The position numbers and the translations under genes were made by a program. Of a DNA stretch of 33,426 nt, positions 18,510-27,388 are shown piece by piece. The stretch covers positions 1-33,426 of the forward strand of contig CAINGB010000020.1 of assembly GCA_903848275.1 (NCBI GenBank), written 5' to 3'. Within the stretch, counting starts at the first letter, position 1. Every line of letters begins with the position of its first letter. This stretch comes from Candidatus Uhrbacteria bacterium (GTDB lineage Bacteria > Patescibacteriota > Patescibacteriia > UBA9934). Under the pieces are notes generated by a model, which saw only the letters and a list, made by a program, of their open reading frames with translations, ran no database searches and was not told the origin of the DNA.

Positions 18510-19760
18510 ATGAAAAAGCCGCATATTGTCATCGTCGGTGGTGGGTTCGGCGGGATGGAAGTCGCTTGGGGGCTTCGATCCCAAGTCAAACAAGGCAAAA
18601 TCGCTGTCACCCTCATCAACGTCACCAACTATTTTCTCTTTACCCCCCTCTTACACGAAGTCGCGACCGGCGGCCTCAGTGCTGGCAGCGTCGCCGAGCC
18701 TCTGCGTGAAGTTTTCGCTCACACCGGCATCAGTGTCATTCAAGGCGAGGTGACCAAGGTCGACGTCGACAAGAAGACCGTCTTCCTCGGTCATCACGCT
18801 ATCCCCTACGACATCCTGGTTCTCTCAACCGGTGCCAGCACCAACTACTTCGACACGCCCGGCGCTCTCGAGTATGCTCTGCCTCTCAAAACTTTAGCCG
18901 ACGCCAGTGCCATCCGGGCTCGCATTATCGACGCCTTCGAAACTGCCTCACTCGTTACCACTTCGGCCGAACGTAAACAGTTACTCTCTTTCGTCGTCGT
19001 CGGGGCCGGCGCCACCGGTGTCGAGCTCGCCGCGGAACTCGCCGAATTCGCTTTCCATATTGCTCACCGCTATTTCTGCGACCGCACCAGCTGCATTTTG
19101 CATAATGAAGTCTCCGTCACGCTCGTCAGCGCCGGCCCAGAACTCCTCGCTCAGTTCCCTCTCCCCACCCGGCTTGCTGCCGAGAAGCGTCTCCGCAAAC
19201 TCGGCGTGCAACTCCGCCTCGGCATCCAAGTCGGCGAGGTCGACGCCACCGGGGTGAATATGAACGACGGCTGGCGCATCCCCTCCGGCCTCACTGTCTG
19301 GACCGCTGGCGTCAAAGCAGTTCTCCCTCCCCTAGCTCAATCTTCTACCTCCGCTAAAGCTCAGCTTTGGCCGCAAACCAACAACCGAGCTGAGCTCGGG
19401 CCAACCTTACTAGCCGTCAACCATAAGAACATCTTTATCCTCGGCGACGCGGCTAACGGCCTACCCATGCTAGCCCAGGTCGCCGTTGCTCAAGGTCGCG
19501 CCGTAGCTAACAATATCGTTTTACTCCTGGCTGGCCGTCCCCTCATCCCCTTCGTTTATCACTCTCGCGGCTCTTTCGTTTCCCTGGGCCAATGGTTCGC
19601 CGCCGGCACCATCGGCAAGCTCAACATCCACGGTCGCCTCACCTGGTGGCTCTGGCGCACCATTTACCTCTTCAAATTCGCCAGTAACAAAAAGCGCCTT
19701 CGCATTGTGTTCGAATGGACACTAAACCTCCTCTATCCCCGCGACATCACCCGTCTTTAA
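18510..19760 (+). CDS. ndh: Type II NADH dehydrogenase-like flavoprotein
   Basis: A 416-residue FAD/NAD(P)H oxidoreductase. The FAD-binding GGGFGGME lies at ~10-17, the second nucleotide fold VVVGAGATGVELAAELAEF at ~162-180, and the third FAD motif NIFILGDAAN at ~307-316. VWTAGVKA (~263-270) is typical of NDH-2. The C-terminal segment is amphipathic and basic, fitting peripheral binding to the membrane, where it would pass electrons from NADH to quinone. In many reduced genomes this is the only respiratory-type enzyme; NADPH use or another acceptor cannot be excluded. Residues 281-297 are encoded by a dispersed palindromic repeat and make the loop before the last FAD motif longer than usual by my estimate. 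Confidence 0.88.
   Translation: MKKPHIVIVGGGFGGMEVAWGLRSQVKQGKIAVTLINVTNYFLFTPLLHEVATGGLSAGSVAEPLREVFAHTGISVIQGEVTKVDVDKKTVFLGHHAIPYDILVLSTGASTNYFDTPGALEYALPLKTLADASAIRARIIDAFETASLVTTSAERKQLLSFVVVGAGATGVELAAELAEFAFHIAHRYFCDRTSCILHNEVSVTLVSAGPELLAQFPLPTRLAAEKRLRKLGVQLRLGIQVGEVDATGVNMNDGWRIPSGLTVWTAGVKAVLPPLAQSSTSAKAQLWPQTNNRAELGPTLLAVNHKNIFILGDAANGLPMLAQVAVAQGRAVANNIVLLLAGRPLIPFVYHSRGSFVSLGQWFAAGTIGKLNIHGRLTWWLWRTIYLFKFASNKKRLRIVFEWTLNLLYPRDITRL
19351..19399 (+). repeat. 49-bp double-palindrome repeat, copy A (inside ndh)
   Basis: Matches 44 of 49 positions with 26123-26171. It consists of AAAGCTCAGCTTT, a short linker, and CCGAGCTGAGCTCGG. It is read in frame as part of ndh (residues 281-297, SAKAQLWPQTNNRAELG). 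Confidence 0.85.
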
Positions 19761-21383: not shown

Positions 21384-22883
21384 TTACCGGTCTCGATCAT
21401 TCCCCCCCCCCTGCATTATTTGCTTCCCAATCACGCCCATCACCGTGTCCACAATCATACTCGGATGTTTAGCTAACTTTTGCAGCTGTGGTCCGACTTT
21501 TTTGATGTACGCATCACCGAGCGTGGAGGGTGAAATCACCGTAAACGGCAAGTAGAACGCCTCGACAATACTCGAGTAATGACGATTCAACTCATTCACA
21601 AACGACGCCAAGCCAGAGTTAACCAAGCCGTACATAATCAAATCCTTCGGCTTATCCTTGGCAGATCCCGCACCCCAAATCATCTGGATCGGCGTTTGTC
21701 GACTTTTGAATTTCTGGACGATCGCCTTCGTTAGCAAGACGCTACCTACCAACTTCGCGCCAAAACAATTCTCAATGCCCTCTTTATTCAGTTCCTCGAT
21801 TGTGCCGTGTCCTCCCTCAGCATCCGCGAACATCAACACCAAGTCCAAGCTCTTCACCTCGCCGAGCAACCTCGTAATACTCTTCTCACTCGTAATATCA
21901 CAAGCCCGTTCGTGCCAGCCAGCCTTATCGATCTTCTTGGCACTACGGCTATACAACCAAATCTCATAACCCAACTTATGCAAAGCGACGGCGACGTAGC
22001 GACCAATTGACTTCGTCTTCGTGCCCGCAATTAAGGCCGTTTTCTTGGCTGGCTTCTGAGCGAAGAAAAAGCCCCAGCCCATTTTGCCGTTCTCAACCTC
22101 ACTGACAATCCCCTCATAACGGTTTTTCAAATCCGTATAAGTGCCATCAGTCTTGTTCTCATGCGCCTTCATCTTCTTAGCTAGCTTGGCGTACGTCCAA
22201 ATCATATCCTGGTCACGCTGTTCGCCCTTAACCACATTTAAACCAACTGTCTGCAAGATCTGCTGATACATCTTAAACGAGAAGCCCTCGTTCCAGTTCA
22301 CCATCTTGTACACCAAATCATGCTCGGTCGTAGTCAACTCACTTTGCGCCTTCTGCGCTAAAAAGTCAGCAATGGCGAACACACCACCCGGCGCTAACAA
22401 ACGGTGCACATTCTCATACAATGCTTGTTTGTCTGCCACGAGCATGATCGCGTCCTGGCTGATCACATGGCTAAACATTTCGTCCTCAGCGAAGACCTCG
22501 CCAAGTTCGCTAGCACTAGCCCGCACAAACTTAACCCGCAGCTTCGGAAACTTCTGTAAATATATCTTCGCATCCTTAATCTGCTCATCACTTAAGTCAA
22601 CGCCGACCCCACTACAATCAAACTTAGCGCACAACTCGATTAATGTTTTTCCCGTCCCACAACCAACGTCGAGCACATTAGAGTTCTTGCTAATCGGCGC
22701 GATCGTTTCAACATTACTCAAGAGATGTTCAGTCGCCTGTTTGTAAGCTGTGGGGAGAGAATCAGTTTCTTTCTTAAACAAACCAACATGCAGCGTATGC
22801 GCCGCTTCATCCCAGGTTTCGTCGTAATATTTCTTGAGGAAATTAAATTTCGTGCGGGTCGTCTTTTCTTGTTCATTAATCAT
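21384..22883 (-). CDS. Fused SAM methyltransferase and SDR-like protein
   Basis: A 499-residue two-domain protein. The N-terminal half is a class I methyltransferase: LDVGCGTGK (71-79), VGVDLSDEQ (~93-101), RLLAPGGVFAIADFL (~161-175), resembling small-molecule N- or C-methyltransferases such as the sarcosine/tocopherol type. From ~280 a short-chain dehydrogenase-like Rossmann fold begins (ALIAGTKTKSIGRYVAVAL), with a catalytic-like Ser region WGAGSAK (403-409). Where SDRs have YxxxK this has YGLVN (418-422), so the Lys is replaced by Asn and redox activity is doubtful. It starts 5 bases after the stop of the dehydrogenase-like gene. A run of ten G in codons 491-494 lies near the C-terminus. 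Known fusions of these two domains are uncommon as far as I know. Confidence 0.8.
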   Translation of the reverse strand: MINEQEKTTRTKFNFLKKYYDETWDEAAHTLHVGLFKKETDSLPTAYKQATEHLLSNVETIAPISKNSNVLDVGCGTGKTLIELCAKFDCSGVGVDLSDEQIKDAKIYLQKFPKLRVKFVRASASELGEVFAEDEMFSHVISQDAIMLVADKQALYENVHRLLAPGGVFAIADFLAQKAQSELTTTEHDLVYKMVNWNEGFSFKMYQQILQTVGLNVVKGEQRDQDMIWTYAKLAKKMKAHENKTDGTYTDLKNRYEGIVSEVENGKMGWGFFFAQKPAKKTALIAGTKTKSIGRYVAVALHKLGYEIWLYSRSAKKIDKAGWHERACDITSEKSITRLLGEVKSLDLVLMFADAEGGHGTIEELNKEGIENCFGAKLVGSVLLTKAIVQKFKSRQTPIQMIWGAGSAKDKPKDLIMYGLVNSGLASFVNELNRHYSSIVEAFYLPFTVISPSTLGDAYIKKVGPQLQKLAKHPSMIVDTVMGVIGKQIMQGGGNDRDR

Positions 22884-22888
22884 AGAAT

Positions 22889-24343
22889 TTATTTATCGTT
22901 CATTAAGTAGTTCGTCATCTCGCCTAACAGTTTATAAGTTTTGACTCTAATCGACTCTTGCGTTTTCCAACCTGCTCGGTACGCCAGCACATTGTTAGCC
23001 AGCACTTTATGCAATTTCCAATCCTTCTTATCCGTCATCGGCAGCCCCAAAATATCTTTTCGCGGTAGCCCGGGGTAGACGTCGAGATAAGCGAATATCT
23101 CATTCCTCACCATTCTCTCCGTCAACGCCAACTGATCGACGGCATTTCCATCCGCCGTATTAATGAACAGCACGCCGTCTTTCATCGCCTCGATAAACCT
23201 CTTATCGACAATCCCCTCAGCCTTATGCGCCGGCACATGAATCGACACCACATCACTCACTTTTGCTAGCTCGTCGAGCCCTACATACTTAATGCCGAGC
23301 CGCTCTTCGATTACTTCGTTACGTCGTTTCGAATAATAGACAACCTCAAACCCCAGCTCTCTCGCCATTCGCGCTACCTGCTGGCCGATTCTTCCCAATC
23401 CTACTAGCCCAAAAACTTTATCGGCGAACTTATAATCGGACTTAGCTAGAGTCTCAACGTCGACCAACTTCCCTGGCCACATCTGCTCAATCTTATCGAC
23501 TTCGCTCTTCGCCACTAATCGTTTATCGCAATAGACCACCTCATTCTCGGCTAAGAACTTATAGGTCGACGCCAGCGTAAAGTCACTAATCTTCTTCTCC
23601 TCGACAATCACGCCAAACGTCCGCAGCGCCTTCATTGCCTTCTCTGCCTTATCGACATTCAATATGCCGATCAGCTTATTCTCAACCATTCGCTCCGGAA
23701 TCAACTGCTCTAAGTTCTTCTTCGTAAAATCGAACTTCACTTGCCCCAACTTATGAAAGTGATGCGCGAACTTCCCGAGTCTCGTATTCTTCTCATTCTC
23801 GGGCAATAACCGAATGCGGGTAAACACATCATTCACGATTGCATTCTTTAACCCATCTCCCTTCTTATCAGCCGAGCCGTCACTCGCATAATTTCTCGTC
23901 AACAATTGCCACAAACCGGCAAACACAACTTCGGCCACAGCTTCAGTGCCATAGTCTGGAATATTCTTAACCTCAATCCCCAACTCTCGCGCCAAGTCGA
24001 CGTTAATCCTATGTTCTTTCTCATGCGTCCAAAAAATAACCAGTTTTAATTGCGGGTTCAATCTCAAAATCTCATCTGGAATATTCGTCCAGCAACTAAT
24101 AATCACCTCCGCGCCCTCCATCCGGTTCATCAAAAGTTGCAGTGGCGTATTATTCGCTCCGAGTTCGGTGTAACACTTAGTGTTGGCAAACATCTCCGGC
24201 ATCTCCGCAAACTGCTTACTCAATCCCTCCGGCAAACTCGACGGAAACTCCAGCACTTCATCCGCCAGTTTATTCAATAACTGACGATGTTCGGGATAGA
24301 AGATGACGGTATCTAGTATCACCACTTTCTTGAATTTTTTCAT
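22889..24343 (-). CDS. 2-hydroxyacid-dehydrogenase-like protein with large insertion and altered active site
   Basis: A 484-residue protein, about 150 longer than usual D-2-hydroxyacid dehydrogenases. The N-terminal catalytic lobe carries ELGIEVKNIPDYGTEAVAE (~120-138). Residues ~152-305 are extra sequence of unknown fold, charged and mostly helical. The nucleotide fold follows with GLVGLGRIGQ (312-321); the strand after it ends YYSKRR, so the NAD-selecting acid is absent and NADP(H) would fit better. The usual active-site Arg in NxxRGxxVD is Asp here (NTADGNAVD, D399), DVFEE-type Glu is missing (DVYPGLP), and the TPH His is missing (LANNVLAYRAG). It may bind nucleotide without normal catalysis. 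It is first in an operon with the methyltransferase-SDR gene and divergent from TrmB-2. Confidence 0.75.
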   Translation of the reverse strand: MKKFKKVVILDTVIFYPEHRQLLNKLADEVLEFPSSLPEGLSKQFAEMPEMFANTKCYTELGANNTPLQLLMNRMEGAEVIISCWTNIPDEILRLNPQLKLVIFWTHEKEHRINVDLARELGIEVKNIPDYGTEAVAEVVFAGLWQLLTRNYASDGSADKKGDGLKNAIVNDVFTRIRLLPENEKNTRLGKFAHHFHKLGQVKFDFTKKNLEQLIPERMVENKLIGILNVDKAEKAMKALRTFGVIVEEKKISDFTLASTYKFLAENEVVYCDKRLVAKSEVDKIEQMWPGKLVDVETLAKSDYKFADKVFGLVGLGRIGQQVARMARELGFEVVYYSKRRNEVIEERLGIKYVGLDELAKVSDVVSIHVPAHKAEGIVDKRFIEAMKDGVLFINTADGNAVDQLALTERMVRNEIFAYLDVYPGLPRKDILGLPMTDKKDWKLHKVLANNVLAYRAGWKTQESIRVKTYKLLGEMTNYLMNDK

Positions 24344-24392: not shown

Positions 24393-24421
24393 AGAATACC
24401 AGAAATATACACTAAAGTCAA
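24393..24421 (-). promoter_or_regulatory. Promoter of the dehydrogenase-like operon
   Basis: On the minus strand TTGACT (24421-24416) and TATTCT (24398-24393), 17-bp spacer, with a leader of about 43 nt. The spacer and -35 overlap AATATA and ATATATT arms of an imperfect inverted repeat that could bind the neighbouring TrmB protein. Confidence 0.7.
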
Positions 24422-24449
24422 TATATTTGCGCTCTATTTACTAACAATG

Positions 24450-24473
24450 TATAATAAAAATATACGATATTAT
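24450..24473 (+). promoter_or_regulatory. Promoter/operator region of TrmB-2
   Basis: TATAAT (24450-24455) and TATTAT (24468-24473) are candidate -10 boxes and together form an ATAATA/TATTAT inverted repeat. From TATTAT the leader would be about 16 nt. Confidence 0.4.
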
Positions 24474-24495: not shown

Positions 24496-25275
24496 ATGCT
24501 TTCTAATACCGAGGTGAAACAAAATCTTTACACTTCCCTCAAAGAACTAGGCCTCACCGAGTCCGAAGCCAATCTCTACCTCACCTCTCTTACCCTCGGC
24601 TCCGTCACCATCGTCTCTTTAGCCGAGCATTTAAGCATGCCCCGGCCCAACGTCTATAAAGTCATCGCCGGCCTCGAAAAGCACGGTTTAACTAAGTTTT
24701 CCGAGCGTAAAAAGCAATCTCGCACCTTCGTGGTGGAGCCACCAACCGTCGTTCTAGAGCAATTACGCAAAAAGCGTGCCGCCATGGAGAGTCTCGACCA
24801 AACCCTAGTTGGCTCTATGCCAGACTTGCTCGCCCTCTACCACCAAGGCGAAACTCCTACCAAAATAAAAGTTTACGAAGGCGAGGACCAGTTCAATAAG
24901 ATTTTCTTCAAAGTTTTAGACGAAGCCAAAGACAAAATCGACTTCTTCGGTTCCGCCGACGCCTTTATTGGCCTCATCTCCTGGGAAACCGAACTCGAAT
25001 GGATCAGGCTCCGCACCAGCCGCCATATTCACATGAACTCCCTCCTCACCCCCGGTGTCGACGCTGCTAAACTCGAACAAAACGACAAACTACAAATGCG
25101 CACCACCCGCCTCTTCACGGGCACCCTCCCCTTCGTCACCGGCTTCATGCTCTACGCCAACAAAGTCATCATCTGGCAACCCAAAGCCCCCCTCGCTGTC
25201 CTCGTTGAAGACGAGTACATCGTGGCCATGCTCCGTAGCATCTTCGCCGCGCTGTGGGAGAGCAGTAAAAACTGA
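24496..25275 (+). CDS. TrmB-family transcriptional regulator (TrmB-2)
   Basis: A 259-residue paralog of the regulator at 2417-3157. The winged helix-turn-helix occupies ~10-85 (LGLTESEANLYLTSLTLG, HLSMPRPNVYKVIAGLEKHGL). The C-terminal sensor domain (~120-255) has KVYEGEDQFNKIFFKVLDEAKDKIDFFGSADAF and WIRLRTSRHIHMNSLLTPG, matching the layout of TrmB-1. It is divergent from the dehydrogenase-like/methyltransferase-SDR operon with 152 bp between, the usual position for a local regulator. The effector is unknown. A large hairpin element follows its stop codon. Confidence 0.85.
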   Translation: MLSNTEVKQNLYTSLKELGLTESEANLYLTSLTLGSVTIVSLAEHLSMPRPNVYKVIAGLEKHGLTKFSERKKQSRTFVVEPPTVVLEQLRKKRAAMESLDQTLVGSMPDLLALYHQGETPTKIKVYEGEDQFNKIFFKVLDEAKDKIDFFGSADAFIGLISWETELEWIRLRTSRHIHMNSLLTPGVDAAKLEQNDKLQMRTTRLFTGTLPFVTGFMLYANKVIIWQPKAPLAVLVEDEYIVAMLRSIFAALWESSKN

Positions 25276-26413: not shown

Positions 26414-27388
26414 ATGGACCTCAAGATCCTTCACCTCCTCGGCCTCAACGCCCTCCTTCGTGATCAGCGCCTGAACAGCGCCCTCTACCGGCTGCACAGG
26501 GTCGGGAGCGACCAGCTCATCCGCCCGGACACCATCACCCACCTGGCCATCAATGCTGACGGCCTGGTCAAGGTGTCGACGAGCGACAAACGCTTCCCGG
26601 TGGTCGACGGTTTCACCGAGCGGAGCGAGTGCATCTGCCTCGGCGAACACGACTCCAGCCTCTACTACCTGGTTACCCACCAGGCCGGGCACGACCCCCT
26701 GCCGAGCGCAACCGCCGCCCTGGAAGCCACCATGCTCTTCGAGCTCCTCCCGGTGCTCGGTTCCAGCTATGGCACCACGGCCCAGGCGGACACGTCCTTC
26801 CAGACGACCGGCTTGCTCTACATCACAGACAGGGCCGGCATCATGGAGCGCGTTTTGCCAATCAATGGCGAGTTCGCCGCCTTCTACGCCGGTCACGGGG
26901 TGCTCTCCATCATGACTGCCACTCACTTCGACCTGATCCGCGTCAGTGCCTTCCTCGGGCGGGTCGAGAAGAACCAACCGTTGATCAAGGTGGACGAAGG
27001 TCGCCCCCGGCAGTCCGGTGAGCGTTTGGTGCGGGGTCGTCAGCAGGCCCAGCCGCTCATGGCTGTTTTGGCCGCCGGCACCATCAACTACTACGATGAT
27101 CTCGGTCTCGAGTACAGTGCGCACCAGATCACGTTGACTGACAGACGGCACCTCGAGGTTCCGGCCGTGGACCACATCGGTCTGCAGGGCAGCCGTTGCG
27201 TCCGTTTGCGACGCGACTCTCACCTGGACGCAGGCACGGTCGAGACCTTCACGCCTCCGCCGCCTCCGCCGCAGGGCCCGCTCGAGGTCGACCTGCTCCA
27301 GCCGGATCGCTCCTACCAGAACCCCTGCTCTACCGGCCGCTCGCTCGACAGCCCCGCTCCTAGCCTCGCGGCCCGCACTTTCGACTAG
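26414..27388 (+). CDS. Hypothetical protein, 324 aa, Pro-rich C-terminus
   Basis: The start ATG follows a weak CAGG-type site. The product seems soluble, with a mixed alpha/beta body (~1-275), for example ITHLAINADGLVKVS, LLYITDRAGIMERVLPINGEFAAFYAGHG and FDLIRVSAFLGRVEKNQPL. A run of six prolines near residue 283 opens a low-complexity Pro/Ser-rich tail. I do not recognise the family. GC content is high. It is the first of two tandem cassettes; its terminator T-run runs straight into the -35 box of the next gene's promoter. A 281-codon frame on the opposite strand is a shadow of this gene. Confidence 0.7.
   Translation: MDLKILHLLGLNALLRDQRLNSALYRLHRVGSDQLIRPDTITHLAINADGLVKVSTSDKRFPVVDGFTERSECICLGEHDSSLYYLVTHQAGHDPLPSATAALEATMLFELLPVLGSSYGTTAQADTSFQTTGLLYITDRAGIMERVLPINGEFAAFYAGHGVLSIMTATHFDLIRVSAFLGRVEKNQPLIKVDEGRPRQSGERLVRGRQQAQPLMAVLAAGTINYYDDLGLEYSAHQITLTDRRHLEVPAVDHIGLQGSRCVRLRRDSHLDAGTVETFTPPPPPPQGPLEVDLLQPDRSYQNPCSTGRSLDSPAPSLAARTFD

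Follow-up and report, generated by a model that had tools for sequence, protein, structure and literature searches.

The locus and the fold of the encoded protein

The window is a stretch of 33,426 nucleotides (contig CAINGB010000020.1) from a Candidatus Uhrbacteria bacterium whose genome assembly comprises 984,837 bases in 48 contigs and is 99.3% complete. Its central feature is a gene for a protein of the 2-hydroxyacid dehydrogenase (2HADH) fold, hereafter the dehydrogenase-like gene, the closest relatives of which lie in genomes titled Uhrbacteria. The locus contains:

22889..24343, minus strand: 2HADH-fold protein of 484 aa with a rebuilt active site (open frame, Pfam, structure model)
21384..22883, minus strand: methyltransferase and SDR-like fusion of 499 aa, starting 5 bases past the dehydrogenase-like gene (open frame, Pfam)
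24496..25275, plus strand: divergent TrmB-like regulator of 259 aa (Pfam, gene order)
24449..24465, no strand: palindrome GTATA-N7-TATAC, a likely operator (spacer comparison, genome scan)
24393..24421, minus strand: sigma-70-like promoter TTGACT-17-TATTCT toward the dehydrogenase-like gene (from a scan that alone is not above chance)

A preliminary description of this DNA had placed the gene correctly at 22889-24343; to this we add the strand, which is minus. It had also proposed alignment to PF00389 and PF02826, and the protein exceeds the curated cut-offs of both families (108.2 bits against 25.1 and 30.6 bits against 24.6). The 2-Hacid_dh_C domain matches at residues 303-428, the 2-Hacid_dh match is split, and both are matched at E <= 0.01 by all ten close members of the family. 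The best profile match is 2dbq (E 2.5e-33), with 6p2i (Bsp5) second (E 1.1e-32). All top structural matches of the model (pLDDT 79) are 2HADHs, among them 5tx7_A (Z 24.4, rmsd 6.4, 298 aligned over residues 4-483) and 1wwk_A (Z 24.4, rmsd 6.5, 295 aligned), and model and matches together place the two-lobe 2HADH fold across the whole chain; the loops carrying HHFHK (193-206) and GLPRK (424-431) are modelled with pLDDT below 50. The nucleotide loop, GLVGLGRIG, is unbroken, as previously described. A likeness to S-adenosylhomocysteine hydrolase was considered and rejected, there being no such Pfam match in any of the 10 members.

The protein is about 150 residues longer than the frames most often seen among canonical proteins (325-342 aa, counted from stop to stop, in 20 of 30). 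About 150 extra residues had been noted before, and this total is about right, but they fall into two inserts, one on each side of a canonical segment that is kept:

23816..23893, minus strand: first insert, a variable linker of about 26 aa (about residues 151-176; alignments, conservation)
23438..23743, minus strand: second insert, a small, weakly conserved alpha/beta domain of about 100 aa (about residues 201-302; model, conservation)

The segment kept between them, canonically R..E...R.GK[YF], reads R178...R188-x-G-K-F192 and is followed by HHFHK. Modelling, which had been suggested as a means to identify the insert, yields a four-strand alpha/beta domain for the second insert but no clear fold match: a Foldseek search for a known fold returned nothing under 1e-3, and a receiver-domain identity was rejected because the best match, the BaeR receiver domain (Z 7.5, 2.5 A over 74 residues), is at background level. 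We call this insert a generic alpha/beta domain. An origin by internal duplication is unsupported (hhalign against the NAD domain, P 0.034, probability 1.5).

Replacement of the catalytic residues

We compared the ten full-length members of the close family (the window protein, L007-L014 and L016) with a canonical set made up of the best 2HADH from each of 30 loci of related genomes, including the host's own ordinary copy (L018). A wider alignment set 13 full-length members from Patescibacteria and Nanoarchaeota (the ten close members and three distant ones, L062-L064) against 36 canonical rows. The places of the catalytic Arg, Glu and His are held by Asp, Leu and Arg in 10/10 close members, as opposed to Arg, Glu and His in 30/30 canonical proteins; the three distant members have the same Asp398/Leu426/Arg456 set, making 13/13 overall. 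Among the 36 canonical rows the three places are nearly uniform (R 35, E 35, H 36), the exceptions being one Q and one I. The catalytic Glu is Asn or Gln in formate dehydrogenases. The replaced positions, and further conserved elements around them, are:

23150..23152, minus strand: Asp398 codon, catalytic Arg place (D 10/10 vs R 30/30, and D in 3/3 distant members)
23066..23068, minus strand: Leu426 codon, catalytic Glu place, in DVYPGLP (alignment, L 13/13)
22976..22978, minus strand: Arg456 codon, catalytic His place, in LAYRAGW (alignment, R 13/13)
24173..24175, minus strand: Cys57 (invariant in 13/13 and in L065)
24089..24094, minus strand: Cys84-Trp85, beta3-alpha3 loop (invariant in 13/13 and in L065)
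24008..24034, minus strand: FWTHEKEHR loop (104-112), replacing the canonical NYAVGFDN loop (alignments)
23945..23956, minus strand: DYGT (130-133; invariant in 13/13 and in L065)
23750..23764, minus strand: HHFHK (194-198; H194, F196, H197 and K198 invariant in 13/13, H195 replaced by Gln in 3)

The earlier claim that all three catalytic residues are changed is borne out, and the change is a fixed state of the whole family (13/13). In all ten close members Leu426 stands where Glu had been found absent from DVYPGLP, and Arg456 where His had been found absent from LANNVLAYRAG; the substitution of Arg by Asp is likewise real, but its numbering was off by one (Asp398, not Asp399). The invariance of the changed triad excludes a chance origin. 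The carboxylate cradle is affected as well, such that none of the 13 proteins has the catalytic Arg, Glu, His or cradle that mark a D-2-hydroxyacid dehydrogenase. In canonical enzymes a small residue and a Gly in the NYAVGFDN-type loop hold the substrate carboxylate, according to a passage of PMC6303947; here that loop is exchanged for FWTHEKEHR in all ten close members, with the pattern WTHE[KF]EHR in 13/13.

Several cleft residues are as fixed as the triad: C57, C84-W85, WTHE108, E110-H111-R112, DYGT, H194, H197-K198 and R456-x-G-W. Beyond the triad, the invariant His, Glu, Asp, Arg and Cys residues lie within loops that line the cleft in the 2HADH fold. The residues that keep the Arg loop and nicotinamide in place, N395, G399, D421 and V422, are shared by 10/10 close members and 30/30 canonical proteins, with Gly399 changed to Ala in two of the three distant members. 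In SERA enzymes, the alphaB-betaA loop of one subunit extends an Arg or Lys into the active site of its partner (passage in PMC6303947). HHFHK lies in the alphaB-betaA loop, and by analogy might reach the active site of a partner subunit.

Invariant positions among the 13 full-length members number 97/484 and are crowded into lobe 1 (40/150), residues 177-200 (11/24), the NAD domain (27/138) and the C terminus (16/44); the inserts have few, 2/102 for the alpha/beta domain and 1/26 for the smaller one. Between the window gene and L007, dN is 0.098 and dS 1.16, the latter near saturation, giving a dN/dS of about 0.1. This crowding of invariant positions, together with the low dN relative to dS, indicates a site under strong selection rather than a relic.

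Cofactor loop

23321..23332, minus strand: S338-K-R-R341, NADP(H)-type loop (alignment and a passage of PMC6303947)

The first place of the S338-K339-R340-R341 loop is Asp in 25/30 canonical proteins and carries no acid in 10/10 close members. Asp is tied to NADH, and the motif [ST]R[ST]X[RK] to NADP(H) in the GHRA subfamily (PMC6303947, in its account of that subfamily). The strict GHRA-type motif occurs in 2/10 members (L012, L016), and two more (L009, L013) have Lys for its Arg. The preliminary description was thus right that SKRR has displaced the dinucleotide-selecting acid, but this is not an oddity, because S-[KR]-x-R resembles the GHRA NADP(H) motif. Given the missing acid and the rule linking Asp and motif to cofactor, the protein likely prefers NADP(H), which is an ordinary part of the finding.

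Extent and distribution of the family

When 279 genomes from the phylum that includes L013, a locus titled Nanoarchaeota, were searched with a profile, 42 lay above threshold: L013's own, three with the full-length proteins of the distant group (L062-L064, E 1e-124 to 6e-145), one with L065, and 37 in which, among the matches listed, only the NAD-binding part was matched. In L065 (338 aa, truncated by the contig end short of the His position) the large insert is missing and the first two triad places are Ala and Leu; the FWTHD, TCWT and PDYGT motifs are kept. A 50-row tree separates the 14 unusual proteins (close family, distant group and L065) from the 36 other 2HADHs with support of 100/100; the placement of L065 inside its branch is unsure because of long branches (L065, L070, L072).

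Occurrence of the gene is sparse. Full-length members were found in 3/95 relatives, host included (a fourth match, in G075, covers 108 residues only), in 2/379 genomes of the phylum (one of them incomplete), in 4/279 genomes of the archaeal phylum if the distant group is included, and at ten loci, one incomplete, in the species collection. Within the host genus the gene is present in G000, G002 and G004, and not in G001 (92% complete) or G003 (94% complete). Members come from separate assemblies titled Uhrbacteria, Vogelbacteria, Falkowbacteria and Nanoarchaeota, and this patchy spread likely reflects transfer and loss. Elsewhere in the window, a pyridine nucleotide-disulphide oxidoreductase (18510-19760) has close homologues in the genus (87%, 74%) only in G002 and G004, both holders of the dehydrogenase-like gene. 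Elsewhere in the genus, a 455-residue frame with one internal TGA matches 2-Hacid_dh_C weakly at G000:C26:2255-2542.

A viral origin was rejected: scans of viral_contigs found no relative, and the plasmid and phage matches are of ordinary level, none covering 80% of the query. Residues 71-430 do match one PHROG (1.2e-21), a family without assigned function. Assignment to a defence system was also rejected, the dehydrogenase-like protein matching no PADLOC family. The methyltransferase matches PADLOC mad2 (5.7e-21) in its methyltransferase part only and the regulator weakly matches CasR/Csa3-type models, both of which we take as domain-level likeness.

A probable dedicated regulator and a variable methyltransferase

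The TrmB winged-helix domain of the divergent regulator scores 44.6 bits in the window (cut-off 25.6) and 45.3, 44.0 and 53.9 bits in the distant group. Nine close-family loci have at least 1 kb of upstream sequence (the window, L007, L009 and L011-L016), and a divergent TrmB-like gene adjoins in seven of them; L013 has an AsnC-type regulator instead, and none was seen in L014. In L016 a 122-aa frame lies between the regulator and the dehydrogenase-like gene. A divergent TrmB-domain gene is found at all three distant loci, and at L065 an AsnC-type gene is divergent from the SDR gene that precedes L065.

The palindrome GTATA-N7-TATAC is exact in seven of ten upstream regions (the window, L007, L008, L009, L011, L015 and L016; not L012, L013 or L014). 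It occurs once in the window, as opposed to 0 sites in 100 shuffles, and this is the single site in the 985-kb genome, which points to a dedicated regulator with a single target. By eye, all three spacers between regulator and dehydrogenase-like gene in L062-L064 contain a different, imperfect inverted repeat, TTGTCGT..TAAGACAACA. Two further features of the surroundings are a 324-aa open frame beside polA in the window (26414-27388), with no Pfam or NCBIfam match, and the position of the cassette on the Vogelbacteria contig of L009 (2045-11327), close to genes resembling xerC and PNPase, an arrangement shared with the window.

Downstream, the SDR part of the fusion carries an altered motif:

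21618..21632, minus strand: Y418-G-L-V-N422 in the SDR domain, a YxxxK motif in which Asn stands for Lys (alignment)

YxxxN takes the place of the classical SDR YxxxK in all four readable fusions (window, L008, L009, L012). A methyltransferase is next downstream in the window and in six of nine named loci with downstream DNA (L007, L008, L009, L012, L013, L016), and there is none in L010, L011 or L014; the window, L007, L008, L009 and L012 have the SDR part, L013 lacks it, and in L016 it is unreadable. Across genomes, the methyltransferase is present in 4/8 searched genomes that hold the dehydrogenase-like gene and missing in the other four, and is therefore not obligatory; among 286 genomes of the phylum it occurs in one, the host. 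In the same-genus relative L007 (8635-9453), the fusion is split by a transposase-like gene, named by eye, while its dehydrogenase-like neighbour is uninterrupted. A 10-C run (21402-21411) lies within the final codons of the window fusion, after which the C terminus departs from its relatives, possibly through a frameshift or assembly error. In an alignment to 3osu, based on one sequence, the SDR that precedes the insert-less L065 (789-1496) carries Ala where Tyr is expected and Gln where Lys is expected.

Proposed function

The reading we favour, and consider reasonably probable as a whole, is that the window protein belongs by descent to the 2HADH-fold superfamily and has been turned into a different enzyme, representing a new subfamily of NADP(H) oxidoreductases with a rebuilt site and a substrate other than a 2-hydroxy or 2-oxo acid. 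That it is probably a new enzyme is suggested by the replacement of the catalytic centre with a strictly conserved set and by the presence of its own regulator alongside. The charges of the site are rearranged, Arg-Glu-His becoming Asp-Leu-Arg and the carboxylate-holding loop becoming WTHEKEHR, and the substitution of Asp for Arg and of Arg for His speaks against a substrate bound by its carboxylate and keto group in the conventional manner. In the proposed mechanism, the protein would bind NADP(H) and move hydride to or from its substrate; Asp398 and Arg456, perhaps with His107, His111, His194 or His197, would bind and protonate that substrate, and the second insert may serve as a peripheral lid or contact domain. 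Gene order suggests that the TrmB-like protein could sense a related small molecule and switch this one operon through the single palindrome, and that in many hosts, though not in every one, the methyltransferase and SDR-like domain may work on the same compound.

A more specific version of this proposal, which as a whole we hold to be distinctly unlikely, is a mechanistically new enzyme, for example the first metal-assisted enzyme of the 2HADH fold. Cys57/Cys84, His107/Glu108/Glu110/His111 and His194/His197 would bind a metal or polarise a cationic substrate (an imine, an iminium or a conjugated alkene) to receive hydride from NADPH; Asp398 would donate the proton and Arg456 would serve as the anchor. 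The enzyme would belong to a self-regulated pathway that handles a methylated small molecule and is shared, through transfer, between Patescibacteria and Nanoarchaeota.

A protein that has lost three catalytic residues, retains its nucleotide loop and is encoded beside a regulator gene might instead be a non-catalytic NADP(H)-binding pseudoenzyme, acting as a redox sensor or holding a partner (the methyltransferase, for example, or the TrmB-like regulator), and the plant CTBP homologue AN offers a precedent (PMC6303947, in its remarks on AN). We consider this unlikely, since the invariant His, Asp, Glu, Arg, Cys and Trp residues sit in cleft-lining loops, not on the surface, the added domain, which would naturally offer a contact surface, is the least conserved of the large parts, and half of the searched genomes with the gene (4/8) do without the methyltransferase. 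The invariant Arg and His residues in the relevant loops are numerous enough for an ordinary 2-hydroxyacid dehydrogenase or 2-oxo acid reductase with relocated catalytic residues (e.g. Arg456 or Arg112 for Arg, and His107, His111 or His194 for His), and a residue change need not abolish activity, SERA type IIIK being active with Lys for His (passage in PMC6303947). Set against this are the Asp at the place of the carboxylate-binding Arg, an Arg described as the most conserved residue of the 2HADH site (PMC6303947, in the same context), and the replacement of the Val-Gly main-chain cradle by a charge-rich loop, such that this explanation appears improbable to us. Decay or mis-assembly of the gene might be suspected from its patchy occurrence (3/95 relatives, 2/379 phylum genomes) but is refuted by the identical residues in independent assemblies titled Uhrbacteria, Vogelbacteria, Falkowbacteria and Nanoarchaeota and by a dN/dS of about 0.1, and we give it almost no credence.

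The 2HADH triad has been studied in detail, and the swap of all three triad positions and the substrate cradle for another fixed set is a natural experiment in the re-purposing of a dehydrogenase fold, and L065, with no alpha/beta insert and with Ala and Leu at the first two places, suggests an order of the evolutionary steps. The gene is carried by ultra-small bacteria and archaea, in tiny genomes where surplus enzymes are rare. Since it has its own regulator and a one-site palindrome, its function should be approachable through the ligand of the regulator.

Comparison with known systems

Our search of the open-licence literature found no description of this protein family. Altered triad residues are already on record in single clades (X4, SERA IIIK and plant AN; passages of PMC6303947). 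The window family shares its fold, Rossmann loop and NADP-type loop with archaeal glyoxylate/hydroxypyruvate reductases and GHRA/GHRC-type 2HADHs (2dbq, 5tx7), and differs from them in its replaced triad and Val-Gly cradle and in its two inserts. The 2HADH subfamily X4 (PDB 1qp8) is an uncharacterised archaeal clade with Trp for His, Val for Glu and a probable preference for NADP(H) (PMC6303947). The passage on X4 describes changes of His and Glu only, whereas the window family changes all three residues, to other ones, and has an inserted domain.

The match between the window SDR domain and AerF (PDB 6jh7), an NADPH-dependent double-bond reductase (passage in PMC13256417), is weak (E 1.7e-4). 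Both have Asn at the SDR Lys place, but the match is too weak for membership, and the window domain retains Tyr418. The acyclic imino acid reductase Bsp5 (6p2i) has the 2HADH fold, uses NADPH and acts on an imine; its chemistry is not transferable to the window family, because Bsp5 has Arg at the Asp398 place in the alignment. The long name of the plant protein AN is ANGUSTIFOLIA. AN is a 2HADH relative said to be without catalytic residues, which may act non-catalytically (PMC6303947, in its remarks on AN). Compared by description only, the site of AN is merely lost, whereas that of the window family is replaced and invariant.
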